From assembly GCA_025463925.1 (NCBI GenBank), contig JAODBK010000042.1:62001-126000 (forward strand): a stretch of 64,000 nucleotides of DNA, given 5' to 3'. Of this stretch, positions 53,016-55,823 are shown piece by piece; the stretch's first letter is position 1; each line of letters begins with the position of its first letter. The DNA is from Acidimicrobiales bacterium (GTDB lineage: Bacteria; Actinomycetota; Acidimicrobiia; Acidimicrobiales; AC-14). The position numbers were made by a program, and so were the translations under genes. The notes beneath the pieces are model-generated. The model saw nothing but the letters and a program-made list of their open reading frames with translations, ran no database searches and had not been told where the DNA came from.

Positions 53016-53586
53016 CGAACCGGAGCGCGGTGTGGGTGGCCGACCAGCGAGCCACCTTGGTGTCGGTCAAGCCGGCGCCGCGGCCGGCCGCGATGACGTC
53101 GTTCTCGGTGGGCTTCGCCCCGCCCTTGCGGAACACGACCCACAGCGCGCCGCGATCGGCGACGCGGCGCATGAGCGCGTCGAGGTCGGCGAGCTGGTCG
53201 GGCGAGTCCGCCGCGTAGAGGAGGACGTCGGCCGGTTGGCCCTTCTTGGGCGGCGTGACGTCGGTGCCGAGCTCCGCGGCGTCGACGCCGACCAGGGCGG
53301 TGGTGACGCCGGCTTTCAGGCCGAGCTTGTCGGCGAGTGTCGGCGGGTTCGCGATCTTGTCGGCCCAGCGCGCCGCCGCCTTCTCGCCGAGCGCGATCTC
53401 GACCGGGCCGTGCGCGTTGGTGACGAGCACGAGGTCGTCGCCGTCGACGCGGATGCTCGTGATGTCGGCGAACGGGAGCTTGAGCTTCAGCGGCTGCCGG
53501 ACGATGACCTCGTCGGTCTCGAGCAGCACCTTGGCCTCGGCGGCCTCGCCGCCGACTCGGACGGTCGCGACCGCTTCGGCGCCCAT
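52993..53586 (-). CDS. Conserved hypothetical protein next to DUF1015
   Basis: 197 residues from ATG 53586, which shares a base with the upstream stop (TGATG). The first ~85 residues are a beta-rich domain ([25 protein letters not shown]...). The last ~105 form an alpha/beta domain ([37 protein letters not shown] ... [30 protein letters not shown]) similar to small actinobacterial DUF3052-like proteins. No catalytic motif is clear. Confidence 0.7.
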
Positions 53587-54758
53587 CAGCCGAGGCTTCG
53601 GAACACCAGGCCGGTGCGGGGCTTGGGCCAGAAGAACGTCGACTTCTCGGGCATGCGCCGGCGGGCGTGCGCCGCGGCCGCGATCTGGCCGACGGTGGCC
53701 GGGCGGAGCAGCACCGCGGCCGTGGCGTCGCCCTTCTCGACTGCCGCGACGGCGTGATCGACGCCGTGCTGGTAGGCCAGCTCGGGCGGTGCCGGGAGCT
53801 CGGCGAGGGCGACGTCGAGGCGCGCCGAGTCGAGGTCCTCGATGTCGGCGGGGAACGTCTCCGGCTTCGGCTTCAAGAGGAACGCGCCGCTCGCGGTGAC
53901 GAGGGCCAGCGCGCCGGCGTCCGCCATGCGCGGCGCGAGGGTGTCGCTGGTCGCGGGACCGGCGTCGAACACGTCGAAGTGGGCCGCGAGGGTGTCGAGC
54001 AGGTCGACACCGTCGGGGAGCCCGGAGATGAGGCGGTGGATGGGCCGCACCGTCAGCTGCTCGTCGGCCAGCTCGACGACGTAGGCCATGAGGAGGTCGG
54101 CCTCCGGCGTGCCGGCCTCGTCGCGGTAGGCGAGCGCGGTCTCGTACCGGTGGTGGCCGTCGGCGATGACGATCGGCGCGCTGGCGACGGCGCGGGAGAT
54201 GGCGTCGACGACCCCGGGCTGCGTGATGCGCCAGAGGCGGTGGTGGATGCCGTCCTCGTCGGTGCAGCGGGCGTCGGGCGGGCCGGGAAGCTCGCACAGC
54301 GCGCTGAGCCCGGTCGCGAGGGAGAGACCCCACACCGGCGACAGGTTGGCGCGGGTGGCGCGCTGGAGGTCGAGCCGGTCGCTCTTCGGCTTGGGCATGG
54401 TGCGCTCGTGGGGGAGCACGTCGCCCTCGCCCGGCACGCTGAGCTCGAGGGCGCCGATGACGCCCGCCGTCTGCCGGGCCCGGCCGGCCTCGTCGTGGTA
54501 GCCCATCCGGTAGACGTAGAACGAAGGCGCGTCGTCGGGCGCGATGACGCCCTGGTGTTGCCACTCGGCGAACCGCCGCCCGGCGTCGTCGTAGTCCCCG
54601 CCGGGGAGGTCGACCCGCACGATGTTGTACGGGCTCCGCGCCTCCAGCCGGGCCTGCTCGTCCGGCCCGATGACGTCGTACGGCGGCGCGGTGACGTCGG
54701 CCAGCTCGACCCGCTCGAGGTCGTACCGCAGACCGGCGAACGGCTCGAACCGGGGCAT
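53586..54758 (-). CDS. DUF1015-family protein
   Basis: 390 residues. PRFEPFAGLRYD, VTAPPYDVIGPDEQARLEARSPYNIVRVDLP, FYVYRMGY, VIGALELS, MPKPKSDRLDLQRATRANLSPVWGL and IVIADGHHRYETALAYRDE are the conserved motifs of DUF1015 (HTH_RRXRR/SerK-like); relatives in archaea are ADP-dependent serine kinases, and the HxxYET segment aligns with that active site. Likely a kinase-like role in serine/cysteine metabolism, but unproven here. Confidence 0.9.
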   Translation of the reverse strand: MPRFEPFAGLRYDLERVELADVTAPPYDVIGPDEQARLEARSPYNIVRVDLPGGDYDDAGRRFAEWQHQGVIAPDDAPSFYVYRMGYHDEAGRARQTAGVIGALELSVPGEGDVLPHERTMPKPKSDRLDLQRATRANLSPVWGLSLATGLSALCELPGPPDARCTDEDGIHHRLWRITQPGVVDAISRAVASAPIVIADGHHRYETALAYRDEAGTPEADLLMAYVVELADEQLTVRPIHRLISGLPDGVDLLDTLAAHFDVFDAGPATSDTLAPRMADAGALALVTASGAFLLKPKPETFPADIEDLDSARLDVALAELPAPPELAYQHGVDHAVAAVEKGDATAAVLLRPATVGQIAAAAHARRRMPEKSTFFWPKPRTGLVFRSLG

Positions 54759-54783
54759 GGCGTCCAGTTTTAGCAGCCCCGGC

Positions 54784-54830
54784 TTTTGCCTCCCCGCGCC
54801 GGCCTGTGAGGCCGGTGCGGGGAGGCAAAA
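54784..54830. repeat. 47-base palindromic hairpin H1
   Basis: Inverted repeat with a 21-base arm (TTTTGCCTCCCC..., containing one G-T mismatch) and a 5-base loop, between the divergent DUF1015 and DUF559 genes. A close relative (H2) lies at 55777-55823 on the other side of the DUF559 gene. H1 terminates neither neighbour, since both are read away from it. Confidence 0.85.
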
Positions 54831-54877
54831 CGCCGACGCGGTGTTGCTGTCACACCTCCTCCATAGGGTTCGTCGTC

Positions 54878-55774
54878 ATGACGAAGCTCGATCGCCTCGT
54901 CGCGGCAAGGGCCGCCGATCAGCACGGAGTCGTGTCACGCCAGCAGGTCATCGAACTCGGCCTCTCGGACACGGCGATCGACAAACGACTGCGCACTGGC
55001 GCGCTGGAACGGGTGCACCGTGGCGTGTACCGGATGCCCGGCGCTCCGAACTCCTGGCGGCAAGCACTCATGGCCGCCTGCCTCATCGGCGACGGCGGCT
55101 TTGCGTCACATCGCGCCGCGTCGAAGCTGTGGGACCTTCGTGGGGTCAACAACCCACCGGTCGAGATCACGATGCTTCGGCGGAAGCTCCACGTCGTGCG
55201 CGGGGTCGTCTTTCACGTCACGGACACGCTCGATCCGGCCGACGTCATGACCGCTGATCGAATTCCCGTCACGTCGCCGGCTCGCACGCTGGTCGGGCTC
55301 GGCGCCGTGGAGCCGAGGATTGTGGGTCCCGCCCTGAAGGACGCGGTGCTCAAGGGCCTGGTGACGTATCCGCGGATGTGGCACACCGTGCGGAGGTTGA
55401 GCGCTCAGGGACGCAACGGCATCGGCGTGTTGCGGGCCGAGTTGGAGCGGCTTGACCCGTCACAGCCACCGACCGAGTCGATGCTGGAGGATCGCTTTGT
55501 GAGCGTAATGAGGCGAGCAGGCGTCGAACTGCGCGGGCAGGTCCGCATCGGCCCCTTCCGAGTCGACTTCGCCGATCCCGTCCGCAAAGTCATCGTGGAG
55601 CTCGATGGGCGTCGCTGGCACGAAGCCGAGCGCGATCGCGTGCGCGATCGGGCCCGTCGGATGCAGCTGCGAGCCGCTGGCTGGACCGTGATCGAGGTCA
55701 CGTGGCTCGACCTGAAGTATTGGCCGGATCTCGTGGTCGCTGAGCTGCGGCAGGCGCTCGGAGCCGCGGCATGA
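54878..55774 (+). CDS. AbiEi-type winged-helix plus DUF559 endonuclease-like protein
   Basis: 298 residues from ATG 54878. N-terminal domain (residues ~1-90) is the AbiEi antitoxin-type winged helix: DQHGVVSRQQVIELGLSDTAIDKRLRTG, HRGVYRMPG. The C-terminal ~100 residues are a DUF559/Vsr-like PD-(D/E)xK fold: ESMLEDRFVSVMRRAG (Glu), FRVDFADPVRKVIVELDGRRWH (Asp and ExDG), then RDRARRMQLRAAGWTVIEVTW. Proteins of this plan occur in many copies in actinobacteria; their job is unknown, possibly defence or DNA repair. The two hairpins H1 and H2 flank it at 48 and 3 bases. Confidence 0.85.
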   Translation: MTKLDRLVAARAADQHGVVSRQQVIELGLSDTAIDKRLRTGALERVHRGVYRMPGAPNSWRQALMAACLIGDGGFASHRAASKLWDLRGVNNPPVEITMLRRKLHVVRGVVFHVTDTLDPADVMTADRIPVTSPARTLVGLGAVEPRIVGPALKDAVLKGLVTYPRMWHTVRRLSAQGRNGIGVLRAELERLDPSQPPTESMLEDRFVSVMRRAGVELRGQVRIGPFRVDFADPVRKVIVELDGRRWHEAERDRVRDRARRMQLRAAGWTVIEVTWLDLKYWPDLVVAELRQALGAAA

Positions 55775-55776
55775 GC

Positions 55777-55823
55777 TTCTGCCTCCCGTCACCGGCCCCT
55801 GGGGCCGGTGACGGGAGGCAAAA
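55777..55823. repeat. 47-base palindromic hairpin H2
   Basis: Same length and layout as H1: 21-base arms and a 5-base loop. Positions 12 and 13 of the arm differ from H1 (CG versus GT), and the partner bases change with them (CG versus AC), keeping the pairs. Position 15 turns a G-T pair into A-T. H2 begins 3 bases after the DUF559 stop and runs into the last codons of the convergent P450 gene. Confidence 0.85.

Follow-up and report, generated by a model that had tools for sequence, protein, structure and literature searches.

The locus raises the question of why a DUF559 gene should stand between two hairpins of the same length and build. These hairpins, H1 and H2 (Table 1), surpass in strength every other inverted repeat of the window, that is, of the whole 64-kb stretch of DNA that was analyzed. 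Within it, TTTTGCCTCCC, with at most one mismatch, is confined to their four arms (4 matches against 0.39 expected).

Two palindromes and the gene between them

H1 reads TTTTGCCTCCC-CGC-GCCGGCC-TGTGA-GGCCGGT-GCG-GGGAGGCAAAA and H2 reads TTCTGCCTCCC-GTC-ACCGGCC-CCTGG-GGCCGGT-GAC-GGGAGGCAAAA. An earlier note on this DNA had described them as alike in length, arm and loop, and this holds: both measure 47 nt and share the layout 11-3-7-5-7-3-11, in which 11 paired, 3 variable and 7 paired bases lead to a 5-base loop and are followed by their mirror image. The partner-base changes it reported are likewise present, since the pair 12/36 passes from C-G in H1 to G-C in H2 and the pair 13/35 from G-C to T-A, with pairing kept at both. 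H1 is situated 47 nt ahead of the start codon of the DUF559 gene and 25 nt from that of the DUF1015 gene. As it lies between divergent starts, it cannot serve as a 3'-end terminator of either neighbor, and the note was right on this point as well. On the other side, only 2 nt separate the DUF559 stop codon from H2.

Table 1. Features of the locus, with positions counted from the first letter of the window.
Feature	Position	Strand	Remarks
DUF1015 gene	53586..54758	-	opposite side of the unit from the P450 gene
Interval without counterpart in G001	54758..55822	.	comparison of the window with G001
H1 palindrome, 47 nt	54784..54830	.	upstream of the DUF559 gene
TAGGGT, a possible -10 element just ahead of the DUF559 start codon	54864..54869	+	inferred from sequence only
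DUF559 gene, 298-aa product	54878..55774	+	residues about 1-180 AbiEi-like (DNA-binding), about 195-294 a fused nuclease domain of Vsr/EDxHD type
H2 palindrome, 47 nt	55777..55823	.	downstream of the DUF559 gene
Cytochrome P450 gene	55789..57051	-	stop codon and the ten C-terminal residues before it (LPPVTGPRGR) lie within H2

Pfam assigns to the protein an AbiEi_4 domain at residues 8-54 (7.2e-13) and an MTES_1575/DUF559 nuclease at about 206-294, with scores of 1.9e-11 for PF18741 and 6.7e-9 for PF04480, and the PADLOC AbiEi profile extends over residues 7-177 (6.7e-34). A nuclease profile made from 25 homologues matched two PDB entries, the endonuclease-like 3hrl (3e-9) and the “mobile intron protein” 3r3p (1.4e-4), and Vsr more weakly. 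We take 3r3p to be the catalytic domain of I-Bth0305I. The Vsr/EDxHD superfamily takes in nicking as well as homing enzymes. In the homologue alignment, E241 and D243 are invariant and D230 and H248 nearly invariant; these D/E/D/H residues and the profile matches bear out the Vsr/PD-(D/E)xK-like domain that had been proposed for the gene. The product is a predicted nuclease joined to an AbiEi-type fold, and cleavage or nicking by it is inferred from sequence. A single-sequence structure prediction (pLDDT 45) was not used. No gene for an AbiEii/DUF1814 nucleotidyltransferase toxin is adjacent, the neighbors being the P450 and DUF1015 genes.

Empty sites and dispersed copies

In G001, a genome of another genus in the same family as the window's genome, the P450 and DUF1015 genes lie 35 nt apart with neither hairpins nor a DUF559 gene. 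DNA homology between the window and G001 stops at position 54757 and resumes at 55823, the last base and outer edge of H2. The C-terminus of the P450 reads LPVLF followed by the ten H2-encoded residues in the window, and LPALFG followed by the stop codon in G001. Given the tight tandem arrangement in G001, the window's genome most likely gained the unit, a polarity that is inferred, without outgroup rooting at the G001 site. No target-site duplication was recognized in this comparison, in which the flanks are too diverged. A G005 unit of three hairpins and a DUF559 gene corresponds to a 20-nt junction in the window's genome, with flanking genes 80% identical, and G010 carries a unit where G004 has a 168-nt junction. 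Presence or absence at orthologous sites, which the earlier note had proposed to compare between strains for the 1-kb unit, is documented by three clean empty sites in total. Two genes that 12 nt separate in G001 are split at L085 (G000 C6:17610) by 500 nt containing a 95-codon ORF and a window-family hairpin.

A pattern search for TGCCTCCC-N25-GGGAGGCA with mismatches allowed identified about 34 true copies of the hairpin in the window's genome, and a covariance model raises this number to about 41. A lack of further copies would, according to the earlier note, have refuted its proposal; this genome holds some 40, whereas the window family is absent from the 59 relatives searched. The supposed link to DUF559 genes stood only in part. 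Most copies are solo, without a DUF559 neighbor, and the window family was found beside just one of the seven DUF559/AbiEi genes of its genome, which rules out that every hairpin adjoins such a gene. The link runs one way: DUF559/AbiEi genes carry hairpins, but not every hairpin carries a gene.

The palindrome ends are symmetrical and read TTYT...ARAA; on both strands the stem is therefore followed by ARAA and G+C-rich sequence and not by a U-run. Two core types, CCGGCC and GAGCGCG, exist in the family. Gene context was convergent for 22 of 42 copies, tandem for 16 and divergent for 4, and 33 of the 38 copies with a facing stop codon are located between -60 and +40 nt from that stop. Several copies, like H2 at the P450 gene, provide a stop codon. 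Across 33 copies, 91 cells were changed on both sides yet remained paired, against a mean of 44.6 in shuffles, and the middle three positions were unpaired in 10-17 of the 33. Compensatory change is thus well supported; the earlier inference that pairing is under selection is not proven by covariation alone, because template switching within a palindrome yields the same pattern.

Some individual copies deviate from the family. Four are chimeric, namely L087 (G000 C97:8865), L083 (C116:493), L084 (C63:71094) and L088 (C108:12252): their left and right outer arms correspond to the two outer types (TTYTGCCTCC. and TTYTCGCG..) and are not paired, which suggests recombination inside the palindrome. 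The 52-nt copy at L071 (G000 C44:5946-5997) contains an extra GCGCGGATTAC unit in its inner stem, an internal tandem duplication. The gene next to the hairpin at L051 (G000 C27:69161) looks, on visual inspection, like a member of the DUF222/HNH endonucleases, another expanded actinobacterial family.

Searches for an existing description of the hairpin were unproductive. Rfam returned just weak microRNA-type chance matches under the gathering scores, and the exact motif occurred across 84,980 species as six scattered single matches, none of them like the family. Integron attC sites were considered because paired boxes surround an internal spacer; they were ruled out since the copies are dispersed and seem to lack the attC core sequence.

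Matched hairpins around homologous genes

At a junction in G001, a 47-nt hairpin was found that has the layout 11-3-7-5-7-3-11 and a sequence different from the window family. With the layout fixed beforehand from the window family, the surroundings of DUF559/AbiEi homologues in other genomes were then searched for it. A 47-nt 11-3-7-5 palindrome with at least 15 of 18 pairs was present upstream of 17 of 34 DUF559/AbiEi genes and of 6 of 1141 control genes. A second test ignores palindromes and only requires matching sequence before and after the gene at a local score of at least 25. By this measure, 22 of the 34 genes but only 3 of 1081 controls have matched flanks (Fisher 1.5e-34), the largest UP/DN score between different loci being 22. 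The p-value overstates independence, as all genes of the test set belong to one bacterial order and at least two of them are orthologues of each other; yet the gap to the controls is large. Of the 34 homologues, eight have a one-sided hairpin, and in the searched flanks of three others there is none. This survey, together with the genome-wide family, ruled out that two hairpins had come to flank the gene by chance.

The hairpins are alike across one gene and unlike between genes (for example, L013, L096, L097, L099, L102, L105, L110, L111, L113, L116, L117, L118 and L213). In 19 palindromes, each outer-11 and inner-7 position was paired in 15-19 despite the differing sequences. Matched repeats also occur at all four paralogues of the window's genome whose flanks were examined, three of which carry other hairpin families. 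Hairpin similarity correlates only weakly with protein similarity (Mantel r 0.13, p 0.04), and no weight is placed on this correlation. Outside the order, the one plasmid DUF559 gene, of Tsukamurella tyrosinosolvens (NZ_LR134454.1, WP_068740572.1), has matched flanks with a score of 36. No matching flanks (scores 10-11) were found for five AbiEi antitoxins encoded on plasmids; next to four of these the AbiEii toxin gene is intact, and in the remaining case, from Streptomyces canus, it is split by an IS3 element. Coming from one order plus one plasmid, the homologues are not fully independent. No homologue was found in phage records and viral contigs.

DUF559/AbiEi genes are multicopy in many genomes of the order (38 of the 60 searched), and several other hairpin families also have solo members. 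Such hairpins were found for the families of C66, C92, G001 and G008 genes; the L011 family recurs at L174 and L063, the L013 family at L167, the L106 family at three places in G001 and the L091 family in G004. Solo palindromes of several families reside in the same genomes as their genes, mostly right behind stop codons.

Further arrangements were noted at single loci. Two identical tandem hairpins lie 5' of one DUF559 gene in G005 (L102 1324-1441). Orthologous gene ends in two genera carry different hairpin families at near-equal distance from the stop codon (L063, G000 C64:108757; L221 1158-1204, G001 C13:41158), and P450 paralogues are adjoined by a DUF559 unit in G005 (L213 2742-2794) and by a solo hairpin in G001 (L211 1452-1498). 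Long, sequence-unique hairpins without a T-run were observed right behind stop codons at L150 1021-1076, L147 2897-2954 and L178 18929-18965; possibly they are the usual 3'-end structures of the group or additional palindrome families.

A putative mobile unit, its alternatives and known systems

At about 1.04 kb, H1, the DUF559 gene and H2 probably make up a compact unit of mobile DNA, in which a gene for an AbiEi-Vsr nuclease is bounded by its cognate palindromes; binding, cleavage and movement are inferred from sequence alone. The matched flanks, the empty sites and the solo copies support the small mobile element tied to a Vsr-like gene that the earlier note had envisaged. In the proposed mechanism, the AbiEi-like half would read the palindrome, either as inverted half-sites in duplex DNA or in the form of an extruded hairpin. 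In its own promoter, AbiEi binds a pair of inverted repeats of 23 bp each that are separated by 3 bp, and the sites of Rv2827c are similar (PMC7319586); an AbiEi-like half may therefore be a natural reader of two 21-nt arms with a 5-nt spacer, which are near that size. The nuclease half might nick or cut at the palindrome or at a target, after which host repair or replication would copy the unit or a lone palindrome elsewhere. Solo palindromes could either have been moved in trans or have been left once recombination between both ends deleted the gene, and they would settle right behind stop codons. The upstream palindrome probably also gives the protein control of its own promoter. No strand-transfer chemistry is known for a hydrolytic nuclease by itself, which leaves the way in which the unit would insert to conjecture.

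The gene might instead be an ordinary self-regulated one, whose AbiEi-like region binds inverted repeats by its own promoter. The position of H1 ahead of the start codon and the near-AbiEi size of its arms and spacer suit such operators, but a matching copy past the stop codon, about 40 solo copies at unrelated 3' ends and the empty sites are all unpredicted by them, and the AbiEi antitoxins with an AbiEii partner lack matching flanks, so that we regard this explanation as quite improbable. We give as little credit to the proposal that the hairpins are terminators or 3'-end stabilizers copied within the genome, with the DUF559 gene between two of them by chance. The prevalence of convergent and tandem contexts close to stop codons agrees with it, as do other long hairpins without a T-run at gene ends here and in related genomes. 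It is countered by the location of H1 between divergent starts, by the stem without a U-run on both strands and by the homologues of other genera, whose flanking palindromes are matched and gene-specific, a pattern that chance leaves unexplained.

A free-standing homing endonuclease that cuts unit-free alleles, with repair copying the unit and the palindromes acting as binding site and regulator, would account for the match to 3r3p and for units located between genes where relatives have an empty site. Homing, however, goes back to one site, and solo palindromes and paralogous units occupy many unrelated sites; this alternative is unlikely, though not to be dismissed. Within the preferred reading, that of a mobile unit, we lean slightly towards a class of mobile elements of its own: a nuclease of the Vsr/EDxHD type, metal-dependent and fused to an AbiEi-type region, would recognize and spread its own palindromes, of which the solo ones would be dependent copies. 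There is a real chance that it is such a class rather than a REP-like variant, and the class would be an independent counterpart of REP/RAYT without HUH chemistry.

Genes annotated as “DUF559” or “AbiEi family antitoxin domain-containing protein” have no assigned role, and defence profiles score the window protein as AbiEi. Should these genes be mobile elements, each with palindromes of its own, many AbiEi/DUF559 annotations would need revision, dispersed hairpins in genomes without RAYT would have a source, and a second, unrelated enzyme would have given rise to REP-like systems. The claim is directly testable with one protein and one 47-nt DNA. In the part of the literature that was covered on DUF559, on MTES_1575 and on AbiEi in connection with palindromes or mobile elements, which left out most subscription papers, nothing on hairpins was encountered.

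Among known systems, the type IV toxin-antitoxin AbiE (PMC7319586) has the AbiEi-like DNA-binding region and inverted half-sites of similar size in common with the window unit. The unit differs in having a fused nuclease domain and no AbiEii toxin gene, and the true AbiEi genes tested have no matched flanks. With the EDxHD/Vsr-like homing endonucleases such as I-Bth0305I it shares a related catalytic domain and intergenic presence or absence, whereas its AbiEi-like half, the palindromes at both ends and the dispersed solo palindromes set it apart. The resemblance to REP elements, which the earlier note had drawn, is borne out by the comparative data. REP/RAYT (TnpA_REP) “REPtrons” and “TIRtrons” likewise consist of a single gene between copies of its own palindrome, with several gene-specific families per genome and short palindromes dispersed by 3' gene ends, where some REP elements supply stop codons (PMC3733652). 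The enzyme in those systems is a Y1 HUH tyrosine transposase, in contrast to the AbiEi-Vsr-type nuclease of the window unit, and no match to PF01797 (Y1 transposase) was found in the window's genome, which is 96.7% complete, while control genomes were positive. Their palindromes bear a GTAG or CGTC tag; those of the window are 47 nt long, symmetrical and untagged. The unit is REP-like without these two defining features of REPtrons, and the hairpin-flanked AbiEi-Vsr gene, its movement being inferred, has the appearance of a mobile element of a type not described so far, one that combines REP-like behavior with an unrelated enzyme.
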